Below are positions 4,201-10,432 of a DNA stretch of 40,357 bases, one piece after another. The position numbers were made by a program, and so were the translations under genes. Under the pieces are notes generated by a model. That model was not told where the DNA came from. It saw only the letters and a program-made list of their open reading frames with translations, and did no database searches. Positions within the stretch are counted from its first letter, which is position 1. The number at the start of each line of letters is the position of its first letter. This DNA comes from Candidatus Zipacnadia bacterium (lineage in GTDB: Bacteria; Armatimonadota; Zipacnadia; Zipacnadales; UBA5352), in assembly GCA_029820295.1 (NCBI GenBank), contig JALGVA010000039.1:1-40357 (forward strand). The letters are read 5' to 3'.

Positions 4201-4825
4201 GCGCGCCCCTCCAGCCGCTCGTGCAGCAGCTCAACCACGCGGTCGATGACCTCCTCGGCGCTCATCCCGTCGCTGTCCACCTCCACGGCATCCTCGGCCT
4301 TGCGCAGCGGTGCGATGGCGCGTGTGCTGTCGCGCTCATCGCGCGCGCGCTGGTCGGCCAGGATCTGGCCGAGGCGGTCAGGAACACCTTGAGCAGCGCG
4401 TTCGGGAAGACCACCGTGCCGATGTCGCGCCCCTCCATCACCACCGGCCGCGTCTGCGCCATGCAACGCTGCGCCGCCACCAGATGCTCGCGCACCGCCG
4501 GGATCGCCGAGACCGGCGAGGACAGGTTGCCCACCTCGGGCGTGCGGATCGGCTCTTCTACGTCCTCGCCGTCCACGAACAGGTGGCCGGCACCGCCGAC
4601 GTAGCGGAACTCGAACTGCAGCTCGCCCGCCAGCGCGCCGATCGCGTCATCGTCGCTGCCGACCTGCAGCCCCGCACACAACGCCCGGTAGGCGACCGCC
4701 CGATACATCGCGCCGGTGTCGATGTACGTGAGGCCGGCACGCTCGGCCACGCCACGGGCGACGGTGCTCTTGCCCGCGCCCGCGGGACCGTCGATCGCCA
4801 CCATGCACCCGATGCGCTCGCTCAT
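4197..4825 (-). pseudogene. cmk: Cytidylate kinase, reading frame broken by an internal deletion
   Basis: CMP/dCMP kinase. The first 152 codons are intact, with P-loop GPAGAGKST (residues 13-21), YIDTGAMYRA and EGRDIGTVVFPNA, and end at KVFLTAS. The remainder is in another frame, from QILADQRARDERDSTRAIAPL through to GRA and a stop at 4197 that overlaps plsC as ATGA. Compared with E. coli and B. subtilis Cmk from memory, about 17-20 residues are missing at the join near 4370-4376. These cover the arginine-rich LID helix that normally follows the FL-AS strand. Both halves are otherwise well conserved. Cmk is normally essential, so this may be an assembly error rather than a true pseudogene. 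ATG 4825 lies 13 bp after aroA with GGAGGG between. Confidence 0.85.
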
Positions 4826-4838
4826 GACAGCCCTCCGC

Positions 4839-6146
4839 TCACTCCTCCTCTTCGATGCACTCGGCGCCCAGCCCTCGCAGGGCCGCAGGGAATCCCGGGA
4901 AGGACGTCTCGATGCACTCGGCGCCCTCGATCACCGTCTCGCCCTCAGCGATCAGTCCCGCGACCGCCGCCGACATGGCGACGCGGTGGTCGTGGCGGCT
5001 GTCGATGGTGGCCCCGCGCAGCGGTGTCGCCCCGGTGATCTCCAGGCCGTCCTCGCGCTCGGCGACCTGCCCGCCCATCGCCCCGAGTACCTGCGCCATC
5101 GCCGCCAGGCGGTCGCTCTCCTTCACGCGCAGCTCGCCGGCGTCGCGGATGACCGTGGTACCTCCGGCCTGCGTCGCCGCTACGGCGAGCAGCGGCACCT
5201 CGTCGATCATGCGCGGGATCAGGTCGCCGCCCACCTCCGCAGCGCTCAGGGCTCCGGCGCGTGCGCTCACGTCGCCGACGCTCTCCCCCGCCTCCTCGTG
5301 GCGCCCGGCGATGCCGATGTCCGCGCCCATCGCCTGCAGCGCCGTCAGCAGCCCGGTGCGCGTCGGGTTGAGCAGCACCTCGCCGGTGGTGATGTGGCTG
5401 CCCTCGACCAGCAGCGCCGCCACCAGCAGGAACGCCGCGGAGCTGAAGTCGCCGGGGACGCGCATCGACCGCGCCTGCAGCGGCCGACCCGGGCGCAGCG
5501 TCACTGCGAGGCCGTCCACCTCGATGTCGGCGCCCATGGCCGCGAGCATGCGCTCGGTGTGATCGCGCGAGGCTGCCGGCTCAACCACGGTCGTCCGCCC
5601 CTCGGCCGACAGGCCCGCCAGCAGCACCGCCGACTTCACCTGCGCGCTGGCCATCGGCGAGTGGTACTCGATCCCACGCAGATGGCCGCCATGCACCGTG
5701 ACCGGCGGCATGCAGCGCTCCCCCCGGCCCTCGACGCGCGCGCCCATCTGCTCCAGTGGCCGCGCGATGCGGTCCATCGGCCGGCGCGAGAGCGACTCGT
5801 CGCCGGTGAAGGTGGTGGCGAACTCGCGGCCCGCCACCAGCCCCATCAGCAGGCGCATGCCCGTGCCCGAGTTGCCCAGCTCCAGCGGCCGGTCCGGCGC
5901 GTGCAGGTCGTCGAGCCCCTCGCCATGCACCTCGATGACGTCCGCGCCCAGGGGATCGATGTACACGCCCAGCGCGCGCAGCGCGTCGGCGGTGCGCAGG
6001 CAGTCGTCGGCCTGCAGGAACCCCTCAATCCGCCCCACGCCCTCAGCGACCGACGACAGGATCGCCGCCCGGTGCGAGATCGACTTGTCGCCCGGCACGC
6101 CGACCGACCCGGTCAGCGGCTCGCAGGCGCGCACGCGCAGCCTCAC
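4839..6146 (-). CDS. aroA: 3-phosphoshikimate 1-carboxyvinyltransferase (EPSP synthase)
   Basis: Sixth step of the shikimate pathway: joins PEP to shikimate-3-phosphate. 435 aa, full length. The N-terminal GDKSISHRAAIL (residues 19-30) carries the substrate-binding Lys21 and Arg26. ELGNSGTGMRLLMG at 89-102 is the PEP-binding loop and resembles class II enzymes. MIDEVPLLAVAA holds the catalytic Asp, and RVKESDRLAAM is the second PROSITE-type signature. The GTG start at 6146 overlaps the tyrA stop (GTGA), indicating translational coupling. cmk follows after 13 bp. Confidence 0.96.
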   Translation of the reverse strand: MRLRVRACEPLTGSVGVPGDKSISHRAAILSSVAEGVGRIEGFLQADDCLRTADALRALGVYIDPLGADVIEVHGEGLDDLHAPDRPLELGNSGTGMRLLMGLVAGREFATTFTGDESLSRRPMDRIARPLEQMGARVEGRGERCMPPVTVHGGHLRGIEYHSPMASAQVKSAVLLAGLSAEGRTTVVEPAASRDHTERMLAAMGADIEVDGLAVTLRPGRPLQARSMRVPGDFSSAAFLLVAALLVEGSHITTGEVLLNPTRTGLLTALQAMGADIGIAGRHEEAGESVGDVSARAGALSAAEVGGDLIPRMIDEVPLLAVAATQAGGTTVIRDAGELRVKESDRLAAMAQVLGAMGGQVAEREDGLEITGATPLRGATIDSRHDHRVAMSAAVAGLIAEGETVIEGAECIETSFPGFPAALRGLGAECIEEEE

Positions 6147-6973
6147 GTCTCGCCCATCCTCTCCCGGCAGGCGCGCGCGGCTTCGAGCAGCGCCGTCAGC
6201 GCGACCGCGTCGCCGCTCACCAGCGCATCGCGGTAGCGCTCCACCTCGGCGGTGAATTCGGCCAGCGCGGCCAGCACATCGTCGGCGTTGGTGAGCAGGA
6301 TCTCGCGCCAGACCTCGGCCGAGCCGACGGCGATGCGCGTGGTGTCGCGCAGGCCGTTACCGATGAAGTCGTCCTCGCTGCAGCACTCGCCCAGCGCACC
6401 CGCGAGCGCCGCCGCCACCAGGTGCGGCAGGTGGCTGGTGCGTGCGACGATGCGGTCGTGGTCATCGGCACCGACCACGACCACGCGCGCGCCGATGGCG
6501 TCAATGGTGGCGCGCAGGCGCTCGACCGCATCGCCGCTCGCGTCTCCGGGGGTGAGCAGCCAGGTCCGGCCACGGAAGAGGTTGGCGCGCGCGGCCATGA
6601 CGCCTGCCCGCTCGGAGCCGGCCATCGGGTGCCCGCCGACGAAGTCAACGTGCGCCGGCAGAGCGGCCGCCGCGTCCAGGATCGCGCGTTTGGTGCTGCC
6701 GGCGTCGGTGACGACGCAGCCGTCGGGCAGGGCGGGGGCGATGCGCGCGAAGACGTCGGGGATGGCCGCGACCGGCGTGGCGATGAAGATGAGGTCCGCG
6801 TCGCGCACGGCCTCAGCGGGGTCGGCGGTCGTGCGGTCGGCGGCGCCTACGTGCAGCGCCTCGAGCATCGTACGCTCGCTGCGCGCGACGCCCACAACCT
6901 CGCCCAGCACGCCGGCCTGCCGCCCCGCGAGGGCAAACGATCCGCCGATGAGGCCGATGCCGACTACCGCCAC
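6143..6973 (-). CDS. tyrA: Prephenate dehydrogenase
   Basis: Oxidises prephenate to 4-hydroxyphenylpyruvate for tyrosine synthesis. The Rossmann motif VVGIGLIGGSFA opens the protein. FIATPVAAIPD, TDAGSTKRAI, GGHPMAGSERAG and TSHLPHLVAAALA are typical of the family. About 276 aa with no C-terminal ACT domain, so no tyrosine-binding regulatory domain is present. The GTG at 6973 is the only standard start, but it lies far from the GGAGG near 7000. In-frame codons extend to CTG 6988 and would read L-I-F-E-R-V-A-V-V-G-I-G, very like the usual N-terminus, so a non-AUG start (CTG 6988 or ATC 6985) is likely. The aroF stop is only 16 bp upstream of that position, and tyrA overlaps aroA by 4 bp. Confidence 0.93.
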   Translation of the reverse strand: MAVVGIGLIGGSFALAGRQAGVLGEVVGVARSERTMLEALHVGAADRTTADPAEAVRDADLIFIATPVAAIPDVFARIAPALPDGCVVTDAGSTKRAILDAAAALPAHVDFVGGHPMAGSERAGVMAARANLFRGRTWLLTPGDASGDAVERLRATIDAIGARVVVVGADDHDRIVARTSHLPHLVAAALAGALGECCSEDDFIGNGLRDTTRIAVGSAEVWREILLTNADDVLAALAEFTAEVERYRDALVSGDAVALTALLEAARACRERMGET

Positions 6974-7004: not shown

Positions 7005-8027
7005 CTACACGTGCCGTCCGACCGCCTCCGCCACCTGCCGCACCTGCCGCATCAGCTCCGCGAACGCCGCCGGGGTGAGCGACTGCGGCCCATCGCTGAG
7101 CGCCTGGTCGGGCCGCGGGTGCACCTCGATGAGCAGCCCGTCCGCCCCCGCCGCCACCGCCGCCAGCGCCATCGGCGCCACCAGGTGGCTGATGCCCACG
7201 GCGTGGCTGGGGTCGGCCACGATGGGCAGGAAGGTCTCGCGTCGCGCCACCGCCATCGCGCTCAGGTCAAGCGTGAAGCGCGTCGCCGTCTCGAAGGTCC
7301 GGATGCCCCGCTCGCACAGGACGATGTCCAGCGTGCCGCCCGCGGCGATATATTCCGCCGCCTTGAGCCACTCCTCGATGGTCGAGGAGAAGCCGCGCTT
7401 GAGCATCACCGGCCTGCCGCAGTGCCCGGCCTCCTTGAGCAGATCGTAGTTCTGCATGTTGCGCGCGCCGATCTGCACGCAGTCGGCCACCTCGGCCACG
7501 CCGTCGAGCTGGCGCACGTCCATAACCTCGGTCACGATGGGCAGCCCGGTCTCCTCGCGCGCGGCGGCGAGGTAGTCCAGCCCCTCGCTGCCCAGGCCCT
7601 GGAAGCTGTACGGCGAGGTGCGCGGCTTGAAGGCGCCGCCGCGCAGGGCCGTCGCCCCGGCCTCCTTAACCGCCCGCGCGGTCTGCATCACCTGCTCGGC
7701 GCTCTCCACCGAGCACGGCCCGGCGATCACCCCCAGGTGCCCCCCACCCACGCGCGCGGGCCCGATCATCACCGTCGCCGGCCGCGGGTTGTACTCGCGG
7801 CTGATCAGCTTGTAGGGCTTGAGAATCGGCACCACGCGCTCGACCCCCGGCAGCACCGAGAACTGCCCCGCCACCACCTCCTTCTCGTGGTCGGGCGCGC
7901 CGATGGCGCCGATGATGGTGCGCTCCTCACCGCGCGAGATGTGATGGCCGTAGCCGCGCTCGCCCAGCCGCGCGACCACCTGCTCGACATCTTGCTCCGT
8001 GCTGTCCGGCCGCATGACGATGATCAT
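7005..8027 (-). CDS. aroF: 3-deoxy-7-phosphoheptulonate (DAHP) synthase
   Basis: First committed step of the shikimate pathway: PEP plus erythrose-4-phosphate. Residues 1-70 form a ferredoxin-like regulatory domain that starts [18 protein letters not shown]. The TIM barrel follows, with [35 protein letters not shown] and VADPSHAVG. This is the type I-beta arrangement with an N-terminal domain, as in Thermotoga. In that family the N-domain mediates feedback by Tyr or Phe, so allosteric control is expected but not proven here. 340 aa, full length. ATG 8027 lies 15 bp after the hisC stop with GGTGAG upstream. Confidence 0.95.
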
Positions 8028-8042
8028 GTCAGCTCACCAGCC

Positions 8043-9167
8043 TCAGCCCAGGCCCGGGCTCACCGTACGCCCGCCCAGGACCTCCCGCAGCGCCGTGATG
8101 AAGGTCTCATTCTGCTCGCGGGTGCCGATGGTCACGCGGATGAAGCTCGGCAGCCCGAATATCTCGCCGGTGCGCACGGTCACGCCCCGGCGCATCAGCT
8201 CGTCGAAGCACTCCACGCTGTCCATCCCGACGTCCACGAAGACGAAATTCGCCTGCGTGGGCACGAACTGCAGGCCCATCTGCTCGAACTGCGTGCTCAG
8301 GAACTCGCGGCCCTGGCGGTTGACGTCCACGCACCGGCGCATGTGCTCCACATCGCGCAGTGCGGCCACGGCGGCATCCTGCGCGATCGAGGACACGTTG
8401 AAGGGCTCGCGCACCTGCTTGAGCGCGTTGGTGATGTCCACCGGCGCGACACCGTAGCCGATGCGCAGGCCCGCCAGCGCGTAGGCCTTGGAGAAGGTGC
8501 GCAGCACCGCGCAGCGCCAACCCGCACGCACGTACTCCAGCGTGTCCGGGTAGTCGTCGGCGTCCACGTACTCCACGTAGGCCTCGTCGAAGACCACGAT
8601 GCACGTCTCGGGCACGCGCTCCATGAAGGCCGCGACCTCGTCGGCGCTGACGATCGTGCCCGTCGGGTTGTACGGGTTCGAGATGAAGACCAGCTTCGTG
8701 CGCTCGTCGATCGCGTCGGCCATGGCGTCGAGGTCGTGACGGAAGTCGCGGTGCTCGATCGCGCGCTCCTCGGCGCCCATCAGCCGCGCGGTGTGCGGAT
8801 AGAGCGCAAACGGCGGCGACGCGAACACCAGGTTGTCGGCGGGCTCGACGAAGGCGAGGCCGAGCATGTGGATGACCTCGTCCGAGCCGCGGCCGACCAC
8901 GATGGTCCCCGGATCGACGTCCAGCAGCGCCGCCAGCGCTGAGGTCAGGGCCGTGCACTGCGGGTCGGGGTAGATGTGTGCCTGCGCGGCGGACCGCGCC
9001 ATCGCCTCGATCACGTGCGGCGACGGGCCGATGGGGTTCTCGTTGGAGGCCAGCTTGGTGACCTGCTCTATGCCCAGCTCAGCCATGACCTCAGCCGAGG
9101 ACTTGCCGGGCGAGTAGGGCACGATCCGCCGCACGGTGTCGCGGATCAGCTCGTCTGCGTTCGCCAC
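8043..9167 (-). CDS. hisC: Histidinol-phosphate / aromatic aminotransferase (HisC family)
   Basis: PLP-dependent class II aminotransferase, 374 aa. KLASNENPIGPSP (residues 38-50), SNPYNPTG (163-170), DEAYVEY with the PLP-nitrogen-binding Asp194, and TFSKAYALAGLRIGYG with Lys227 as the Schiff-base lysine are all present. The family makes histidinol phosphate, and HisC-like enzymes often also transaminate phenylpyruvate and hydroxyphenylpyruvate. Its position between prs and aroF-tyrA fits either or both roles. No other his gene is in the window, so the aromatic role deserves weight. The GTG start at 9167 has an ideal GAGGAGGAG site 6 bp upstream. The prs stop is 37 bp upstream. Confidence 0.93.
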   Translation of the reverse strand: MANADELIRDTVRRIVPYSPGKSSAEVMAELGIEQVTKLASNENPIGPSPHVIEAMARSAAQAHIYPDPQCTALTSALAALLDVDPGTIVVGRGSDEVIHMLGLAFVEPADNLVFASPPFALYPHTARLMGAEERAIEHRDFRHDLDAMADAIDERTKLVFISNPYNPTGTIVSADEVAAFMERVPETCIVVFDEAYVEYVDADDYPDTLEYVRAGWRCAVLRTFSKAYALAGLRIGYGVAPVDITNALKQVREPFNVSSIAQDAAVAALRDVEHMRRCVDVNRQGREFLSTQFEQMGLQFVPTQANFVFVDVGMDSVECFDELMRRGVTVRTGEIFGLPSFIRVTIGTREQNETFITALREVLGGRTVSPGLG

Positions 9168-9204: not shown

Positions 9205-10179
9205 TCAGCCGCGATCGACGATCTGCGTGAGAAGCTGGCTGACCGAGCGGTTCTCGTGAATGCAACGCACCGCCTGCGCCAGCAGCGGCGCCACCGAGAC
9301 CACGGTCACGTTGTCGGGCAACTGCGGCTGCGGCGGGATCGTGTCGGTCGTGTACAGCGTGCTGATGGCCGAGTCGCCGATGAGCTGTGGCGCGTCGCCG
9401 CACATGATGGCATGGGTGACGCAGGCGTTCACTTCGGTCGCACCCGCCGCCATGACCTCGCCGGCGGCGTTGACGATGGTGCTGCCGCCGAAGATGAAGT
9501 CATCGACCAGCAGCGCGCGCTTGCCCTGCAGGTCACCCACGGTCTCCACCGTGTGCGCCAACTCCACGTTCTCCTCCGGATGGCGCTTGAAGATCACCGC
9601 GATGCCGCAGCCGAGCTTGCGGGCGACATCGGTGGCGCGCTCCACGGCGCCGGCGTCGGGCGCGACGATCACGGTGTTGGCCCCGGTCAGCCCCTCCTGG
9701 CGGAAGACGTTGAGGAACACCGGCAGGTTGGGCAGGTGGTCCATCGGGATGTCGAAGAACCCCTGGATGGCGCCCTCGTGCAGGTCCATGGTCACGATGC
9801 GGTCTACGCCCGCAGCCACCGTCAGGTCGGCGACCACGCGCGCTGAGATGGGCTCACGCCCGCGGAACTTGCGCTCCTGCTTGCTGTAGGGATACCACGG
9901 GATCACGGCCGTGATGCGCTCGGCCGAGGCGCGGCGCGCGGCATCGATCATCAGCCACAGCTCCAGCAGTCGGTCGCTCACCTCGCCGCCGAAGGACTGG
10001 AAGATGAACACGTCATTGCCGCGCACGTTCTCGTGAAGCTGCACGCGGATCTCGTCGTTGGACCACTTGCCCACCGTGGCCTCGGACAGGCGCGTGTCCA
10101 GCACGTCCGCGACATCCCGGGCGAGCTGGACGCAGCCGTTCCCCGCGAAGATGTTCAGGTCGTCAAACGCCGGTCCCAT
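9205..10179 (-). CDS. prs: Ribose-phosphate pyrophosphokinase with variant PRPP loop
   Basis: Makes PRPP from ribose-5-phosphate and ATP, feeding histidine, tryptophan, nucleotide and NAD synthesis. 324 aa, normal for class I. WSNDEIRVQL, NVRGNDVFIFQS, SKQERKFRGREPIS (catalytic flexible loop, residues 99-112), MDLHEGAIQGFFDIPMDHL and APDAGAVERA are recognisable. The PRPP-binding loop reads VDDFIFGGST (225-234), whereas the usual class I form is DD-(M/L)-(I/V)-DT-(A/G)-GT, so the second Asp-Thr is replaced by Phe-Gly. The rest of the domain is intact. First gene of the long operon. ATG 10179 follows GGGAG by 8 bp. The promoter and a structured leader lie upstream. Confidence 0.93.
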   Translation of the reverse strand: MGPAFDDLNIFAGNGCVQLARDVADVLDTRLSEATVGKWSNDEIRVQLHENVRGNDVFIFQSFGGEVSDRLLELWLMIDAARRASAERITAVIPWYPYSKQERKFRGREPISARVVADLTVAAGVDRIVTMDLHEGAIQGFFDIPMDHLPNLPVFLNVFRQEGLTGANTVIVAPDAGAVERATDVARKLGCGIAVIFKRHPEENVELAHTVETVGDLQGKRALLVDDFIFGGSTIVNAAGEVMAAGATEVNACVTHAIMCGDAPQLIGDSAISTLYTTDTIPPQPQLPDNVTVVSVAPLLAQAVRCIHENRSVSQLLTQIVDRG

Positions 10180-10230
10180 GCCTCTGTCTCCCTGCCATGC
10201 GTGTTGGACGGCCGACCGTCTCCCCCACAG

Positions 10231-10259
10231 GAAAACGCCGCGGCTGGTGTCCGCGGCGT
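10231..10259 (-). terminator. Hairpin plus T4 in the prs leader (intrinsic terminator-like)
   Basis: On the minus strand a perfect 9-bp stem, ACGCCGCGG / CCGCGGCGT with a 7-nt loop, is followed at once by TTTTC. It lies about 50 nt upstream of the prs start and about 140 nt downstream of the predicted transcription start. No minus-strand gene ends upstream of it, so it is more likely an attenuator than an ordinary terminator. The U-tract is short, so termination efficiency is uncertain. Confidence 0.6.
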
Positions 10260-10310
10260 CGGGATGGTTCGGGATGAGGCGCTGCTAGCCGATCTCCCTC
10301 CGCCGCGGAC
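10249..10310 (-). promoter_or_regulatory. Candidate antiterminator pairing in the prs leader
   Basis: The minus-strand segment GTCCGCGGCG at 10310-10301 is exactly complementary to CGCCGCGGAC at 10258-10249, which forms the 5' arm and first loop bases of the leader hairpin. Pairing of the two would prevent the terminator hairpin. The segment lies inside the leader ORF, 10 nt past its last His codon. The GC content and the CCGCGG core raise the chance of accidental complementarity. Confidence 0.45.
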
Positions 10311-10362
10311 GGGGCGCGCAGTGACTATGATAGGCGTAATCGCAGCCCGACGCGGCGGCCAT
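10285..10362 (-). CDS. Candidate leader peptide with Tyr/His run upstream of prs
   Basis: A 25-codon ORF, ATG at 10362 and TAG at 10287-10285, begins about 36 nt into the predicted transcript. It encodes M-A-A-A-S-G-C-D, then YAYHSH at residues 9-14, then C-A-P-R-P and an arginine-rich end. Two Tyr and two His codons fall within six residues, in an operon that holds hisC, prs, aroF and tyrA. A weak site, GCGGGG, lies 8 nt before the ATG. The ORF could be chance; its support is the combination with the promoter, antiterminator segment and terminator hairpin. Confidence 0.4.
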   Translation of the reverse strand: MAAASGCDYAYHSHCAPRPRRREIG

Positions 10363-10403
10363 GGGAGCAACCCCGCAGGTCCGGGAGTGCAGCGCGTGTG
10401 CAT

Positions 10404-10432
10404 AAACTAACACAGGCCCATGGCCCTGTCAA
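10404..10432 (-). promoter_or_regulatory. Sigma-70 type promoter of the prs operon
   Basis: On the minus strand a -35 box TTGACA (10432-10427) and a -10 box TAGTTT (10409-10404) are separated by exactly 17 bp. The predicted start is near 10397, giving a leader of about 218 nt before prs. Confidence 0.75.
10412..10429. promoter_or_regulatory. 18-bp dyad inside the prs core promoter (possible operator)
   Basis: ACAGGCCCATGGCCCTGT is symmetric about CCATGG in 16 of 18 positions, with one mismatched symmetric pair. It covers half of the -35 box and the spacer, where a bound repressor would block RNA polymerase. No candidate DNA-binding regulator is encoded nearby. Confidence 0.4.

Follow-up and report, generated by a model that had tools for sequence, protein, structure and literature searches.

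The window, a stretch of 40,357 nucleotides from the genome of Candidatus Zipacnadia (WS1, Armatimonadota), carries on its minus strand the gene series prs-hisC-aroF-tyrA-aroA. The genes were assigned from protein family models as follows.

9205-10179, minus strand: prs, ribose-phosphate diphosphokinase (PRPP synthetase); NF002320, 340 bits against a cut-off of 297
8043-9167, minus strand: hisC, histidinol-phosphate aminotransferase; TIGR01141, 345 bits against a cut-off of 276.55
7005-8027, minus strand: aroF, DAHP synthase; NF006421 and TIGR01361 above cut-off
6143-6973, minus strand: tyrA, prephenate dehydrogenase-like; matched best by families of prephenate/arogenate dehydrogenases, at E 1e-68 and weaker, with no curated cut-off exceeded
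4839-6146, minus strand: aroA, EPSP synthase; TIGR01356 above cut-off

Downstream of aroA, domain models identify cmk and then a plsC-like gene. The intergenic gaps from prs onward are 37, 15, 31, -4, 13 and 61 nt, and a single transcript is likely because these gaps are short. The cmk gene (4262-4825) looks damaged: its relatives align as residues 1-152 and from about residue 176 on. The approximately 23 residues missing near 4365-4370 may reflect a real deletion or an assembly error.

Ahead of prs lies a leader with the following elements.

10404-10432, minus strand: promoter read from the sequence, TTGACA (10432-10427), spacer of 17 nt and TAGTTT (10409-10404), extended -10 by TGT (10412-10410)
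10180-10397, minus strand: predicted leader transcript, about 218 nt from the predicted transcription start, placed by means of the promoter, to the prs ATG (10179)
10383-10386 and 10372-10377, minus strand: segment 1, predicted partner of segment 2, overlapping the ribosome site of the leader ORF (RNAalifold consensus, partner-swap test)
10285-10362, minus strand: leader peptide ORF of 25 codons, MAAASGCDYAYHSHCAPRPRRREIG; homologous ORF in all ten family genomes
10321-10338, minus strand: putative regulatory codons Y9 A10 Y11 H12 S13 H14 (TAC GCC TAT CAT AGT CAC)
10295-10310, minus strand: segment 2, predicted 5' arm of the antiterminator, core CCGCGG invariant in all ten family genomes
10249-10264, minus strand: segment 3, predicted 3' arm of the antiterminator (10264-10261 and 10258-10249) and 5' arm of the terminator (10259-10251)
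10232-10243, minus strand: segment 4, predicted 3' arm of the terminator with its T run; stem conserved in all ten family genomes

The GC stem with its T4 spans 10259-10231 on the minus strand, and the stem energy calculated for the terminator of the window leader is about -19 kcal/mol. The fragment GTCCGCGGCG (10310-10301) is the exact complement of CGCCGCGGAC (10258-10249). The promoter, the leader of about 218 nt, the 25-codon ORF whose residues 9-14 read YAYHSH, the GC stem with T4 and the 10-nt complement had been pointed out in a preliminary description of this DNA, and all of them are present on the minus strand as listed. To these elements we add an extension of the antiterminator by 4 bp (10298-10295 with 10264-10261) and segment 1, which had not been reported and which is predicted to pair with 10309-10295. 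The ribosome site of the window ORF is GGGG, the weakest of the ten family leaders; the other nine have GGAG. This ORF also has the fewest Tyr and His codons of the ten, tied with one relative.

Conservation and coding content of the leader

The family sample consists of ten genomes from six genera of one family, and those bearing names are metagenome-assembled. The same leader plan is found directly ahead of prs-hisC-aroF in every one of them. It comprises a TTGACA-17/18-TAnnnT promoter, a leader ORF of 25 to 29 codons, the sequence CCGCGG invariant just 5' of the stop codon, and a GC terminator stem with a T run. An alignment of related leaders had been proposed in the preliminary description as a check, and it gives the Tyr/His-rich ORF, segment 2 and the terminator in all ten genomes. 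The leader peptides of the relatives are MVGARHAHFRYHSYHGPRPRPRDLR, MTLLLARHHHYYRDAPVTPRRRESC, MSVASFLHSHYRHYAYHGLSPRRREFC, MAYLSTHDHYGCYYHPGPRPRRSETC, MGPAVLHLHYRHYAYHGARPRRRESC, MTKVPTAYHGYYPRHAYRPRRREFC, MTHPARHLHYRHYAYHGVYPRRRDLC, MMARISCWHGHYYAYYHHHGLCPRSRVTC and MMTRTRWAYCYPHLHRDRRPRRTAGC.

A covariance model of the leader scores 100-152 bits in the ten family genomes. Among the other 281 of the 291 genomes of the phylum that were searched with this model, nothing convincing was found, the maximum being 31 bits. In the two weak matches that were inspected (L253 and L142), none of the listed ORFs was seen to be a prs or aro gene.

The ten leader peptides contain 30 Tyr and 34 His in 250 residues, while 3.8 and 6.2, respectively, would be expected from the proteins of the window. 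With relatedness ignored, the probability of such an excess is 8e-18 for Tyr and 1e-15 for His. Each residue occurs at about 5-8 times its expectation and the enrichment is essentially confined to the frame of the ORF, the other two frames over the same DNA having 0-2 Tyr/His. There are at least two Tyr and at least two His codons in every family leader, and the number of Tyr codons per leader is 2-4. The codons TAT and CAT, which the genome uses less, account for 29 of the 64 leader Tyr/His codons, compared with 17 of the 128 such codons in nine genes of the window (P 2e-6). Synonymous Tyr/His codons therefore vary, while the residues stay. The choice of regulatory codons is expected to matter, and the TAT/CAT bias of the leaders fits this expectation (PMC1183508).

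The genes prs, hisC and aroF are adjacent and in this order in all ten genomes. The TIGR01141 cut-off is exceeded by one protein per genome, which in all ten is the HisC of the operon, and hisD is likewise present in all ten. As HisC is single and hisD is present, histidine synthesis needs the operon. PRPP is a starting substrate of histidine synthesis, aroF and tyrA belong to the tyrosine/aromatic route, and HisC-type enzymes in some bacteria also transaminate aromatic precursors. The operon thus contributes to histidine synthesis and, judged by the genes in it, to that of tyrosine as well. One leader for both residues is sensible, because histidine requires the HisC of the operon as well as PRPP, and aroF and tyrA serve the aromatic route. 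This agrees with the earlier suggestion that both amino acids are relevant products.

RNA pairings and the proposed switch

Segment 2 is complementary to segment 3 in all ten family leaders. For the consensus pairing, 94% of the cells pair, compared with 42-57% when the partners are slid. RNAalifold, applied without guidance, returns the pairing of the 5' UTR segment with segment 2 plus the terminator. In the predicted 1:2 hairpin, segment 1 is located in the 5' UTR rather than over the regulatory codons.

Conventional covariation on the consensus structure was not above shuffles in these ten genomes, where the stems hardly vary; the covariation counts are uninformative because the core stems (CCGCGG) are almost invariant. 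The partner-swap test compares pairing with the own partner and with that of another genome. For the antiterminator flanks the mean energies are -12.1 and -9.7 kcal/mol, respectively, and none of 20,000 permutations was as good. The same test gives P ~0.01 for segment 1 with segment 2, while two control pairings gave P 0.35 and 0.94. The preliminary description had called for compensated changes in both pairings, and the outcome speaks for its interpretation, within limits: the flanks match their own partners, but the core is invariant and ordinary covariation does not exceed that of shuffled alignments.

The effect of ribosome position was modelled by constrained folding, in which the ribosome was assumed to mask the RNA as far as 12-16 nt beyond the codon in the A site. 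The modelled probability of the 2:3 pairing is near 1 almost everywhere until the ribosome reaches the Tyr/His run, and within a few more codons it falls to 0. In seven of the ten leaders this probability is last at or above 0.5 at a codon no more than one codon away from the final Tyr/His codon. In two of the remaining three it is so exactly at a His codon that is followed by one more Tyr. The sequence CCGCGG begins 21 nt before the stop in all ten leaders, and with segment 2 at this fixed distance a ribosome at the stop codon would cover it. According to these models, the antiterminator can form only with the ribosome at or before the last Tyr/His codons, not at the stop. Folding in both states, another check put forward earlier, thus places the modelled switch point at the end of the Tyr/His run. 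In several genomes, however, equilibrium folding with the ribosome at certain stall positions gives the terminator precedence over the antiterminator. Because equilibrium does not always prefer the 2:3 pairing, the switch would have to be kinetic: segments 2 and 3 would pair before segment 4 has been transcribed. Segment 1 sits behind a stalled ribosome, which counts against a clear part for it in the switch.

The conserved anatomy, the folding geometry and the metabolic match support the Tyr/His attenuator interpretation of the preliminary description. On the strength of sequence comparison and folding models, it is very probable that the leader is a ribosome-mediated transcription attenuator with Tyr and His codons, controlling prs-hisC-aroF-tyrA-aroA. 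We infer ribosome stalling, termination, an either/or response and a role of segment 1 in the following manner. With an ample supply of both charged tRNA-Tyr and charged tRNA-His, the ribosome would pass the Tyr/His run, reach the stop codon and cover segment 2. Segments 3 and 4 would then form the terminator, and transcription would end before prs. A shortage of either tRNA would make the ribosome stall on a Tyr or His codon and leave segment 2 (10310-10295) free. Free segment 2 would pair with segment 3, the terminator would be blocked and the operon would be transcribed. In the absence of leader translation, a pairing of segments 1 and 2 is probable, which would hide the ribosome site of the leader and let the terminator form.

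A more specific proposal, which we regard as reasonably likely, is that of a two-input attenuator answering to Tyr or His. A single leader would then govern PRPP synthetase, the sole HisC and the entry enzymes of the tyrosine route in all ten genomes of one uncultured family, with prs moved ahead of hisC-aroF and with segment 1 tying the switch to the ribosome site of the leader. If true, this would be a natural two-input gate, explained by the shared aminotransferase and the need of histidine synthesis for PRPP. The leader would also offer a compact two-input switch for reporter work.

Alternative explanations and known attenuators

It is important to consider whether the pattern could have arisen by chance in GC-rich DNA. 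When the upstream leader is shuffled with its dinucleotides preserved, 15 of 2000 shuffles (0.75%) yield a complement of at least 10 nt to the terminator arm. The window ORF alone has 4 Tyr/His in 24 residues (P 0.014). The caution about chance in the preliminary description was fair for a single genome, because the Tyr/His content of the lone ORF is only mildly unusual, and the evidence from one genome is by itself suggestive only. However, the arrangement is kept in all ten genomes though the leaders have diverged to 63% mean column identity, and the invariant alignment columns are mostly within the functional segments. Chance as the sole explanation is already refuted by this comparison of sequences, and the probability left to it is negligible. 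Conservation of composition in ten family genomes would also be expected if the ORF coded for a small functional peptide, for example a metal-binding one rich in His and Tyr, with the terminator belonging to this small gene. However, the peptide shows free variation in length and in the order and spacing of its Tyr and His residues, whereas the RNA keeps a fixed geometry with respect to segment 2 and the stop. The C-terminal residues follow the conserved RNA: the last residue differs in the window genome and in G001, with the nucleotides GCTAG unchanged. The arms, in addition, show pairing with their own partners. A peptide gene of this kind is therefore very improbable.

The sensing of one amino acid only, for example tyrosine, with the other codons as tolerated fillers, is an unlikely but more serious alternative. 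Ribosome-mediated attenuators have been described mostly for single amino acids, and mostly from Proteobacteria and Actinobacteria. With its 2-4 Tyr codons each leader could respond to tyrosine alone, just as 2-3 Trp codons suffice in trp leaders (PMC1262725). On the other hand, Tyr and His are independently enriched, each with at least two codons in every leader, and histidine synthesis depends on an operon gene that is single per genome. The attenuator most likely reads both Tyr and His. Codons for Tyr, His, Asn and Asp (NAY) are read by queuosine-modified tRNAs, and the leader might accordingly sense the queuosine state, slow decoding by unmodified tRNAs opening the switch. This reading was rejected, since Asn and Asp codons are not enriched in the ten leaders (0 Asn and 6 Asp against 64 Tyr/His); the genes of the operon are also not those of a queuosine operon, and we consider it highly improbable. 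A direct RNA sensor is hardly to be expected either, whether a T-box, known to regulate tyrosine genes at the RNA level in other bacteria (PMC1262725), or a sensor of another ligand such as PRPP. The T-box covariance model has no match on the window leader or its nine homologues. Rfam at gathering score gives no match in the ten leader loci except an opposite-strand NiCo riboswitch in one relative, and the in-frame Tyr/His ORF would be unexplained by direct sensing. The NiCo riboswitch (RF02683; L140 1313-1408, minus strand, genome G006) lies close upstream of the leader.

The attenuator with both Tyr and His codons can be compared with well known systems. Like hisL, the his attenuator of Salmonella and E. 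coli, it has His codons in its leader peptide, an antiterminator and a terminator that exclude each other, and a histidine biosynthetic operon as target. It differs in mixing Tyr with His, in its target prs-hisC-aroF-tyrA, in the phylum and in having no Rfam leader match. The trp and pheA attenuators are similar in the switch by ribosome position, in aromatic codons and in a ribosome at the stop that hides segment 2. However, they respond to a single amino acid, Trp or Phe, and segment 1 of the Zipacnadia leader is in the 5' UTR over the ribosome site. One leader answers to several amino acids in the ilvGMEDA and thrABC attenuators. These combine the products of one branched pathway (Ile/Val/Leu and Thr/Ile, respectively), while the Zipacnadia leader would combine two pathways joined by one aminotransferase and PRPP. 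With respect to the target, the nearest precedent found is the uORFC-13-1 motif of Acholeplasma, a predicted uORF with Phe codon(s) and a terminator, which belongs to another phylum and is described upstream of aroF only (PMC8632094). The tyrosine T-box is similar as RNA-level control of tyrosine genes, but it binds tRNA directly and has no leader peptide. In a survey of Actinobacteria, His, Thr and Phe were found under attenuators, and Tyr is T-box-controlled in other species (PMC1262725).

The leader would work like the trp and his attenuators and shows their features at the level of sequence and folding, apart from the position of segment 1, yet it is not a sequence member of the Rfam families: those of the His, Trp and Phe leaders gave no match at gathering score in the ten loci. 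In the non-subscription literature searched, neither Tyr-codon leader peptides nor attenuation in Armatimonadota were found. The mechanism is classical. A double Tyr and His code, prs as the target and occurrence in this lineage, on the other hand, seem not to have been described before; the preliminary description had called a joint Tyr/His attenuator on prs unusual, which is in agreement.

Origin of the operon prs and other leaders of the lineage

In sister families prs is located elsewhere, often beside a tRNA-Gln gene. In the tree, the operon prs groups with the prs of the sister families on a long stem, where the program warns that long branches meet. This grouping suggests that the operon prs is probably the ordinary prs in a new location. 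The possibility that it is a recruited duplicate was rejected on the same grounds, the second prs being the divergent one. From these sequence comparisons, the leader appears to have arisen with the move of prs ahead of hisC.

The second, divergent prs occurs in nine of the ten family genomes (G000:C61:26770-27699, with homologues L103-L111), and no such leader was detected there. Most family genomes also have another DAHP synthase, which shares about 50% identity with aroF of the operon (G000:C326:24903-25910). No similar conserved leader was found near the second aroF in the family or at the aroF operons of sister families. The prs of sister family f5 (L112, L113) is preceded by a promoter-like sequence of its own and by another GC-rich leader, which lacks a Tyr/His ORF. 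The hisD loci of the family have no conserved His-only leader; there is one weak mixed His/Tyr match (L242), in a single genome.

Trp codons cluster in an ORF upstream of trpE in the window genome and eight relatives (WAWRW, in one case WGWWW), and GC hairpins follow this ORF. By its sequence, the trpE leader is a putative second attenuator in the lineage, one for a single amino acid. Together with the leader of prs, it would show attenuation as a working regulatory mode in the uncultured class Zipacnadia. The Trp leader peptide of the window genome is MSTHCCRQTVVRWAWRWRQRAA (L270, G000:C82, minus strand, with WAWRW at about 1773 of the reverse complement), and the corresponding loci of the relatives are L272, L258-L260 and L262-L265.
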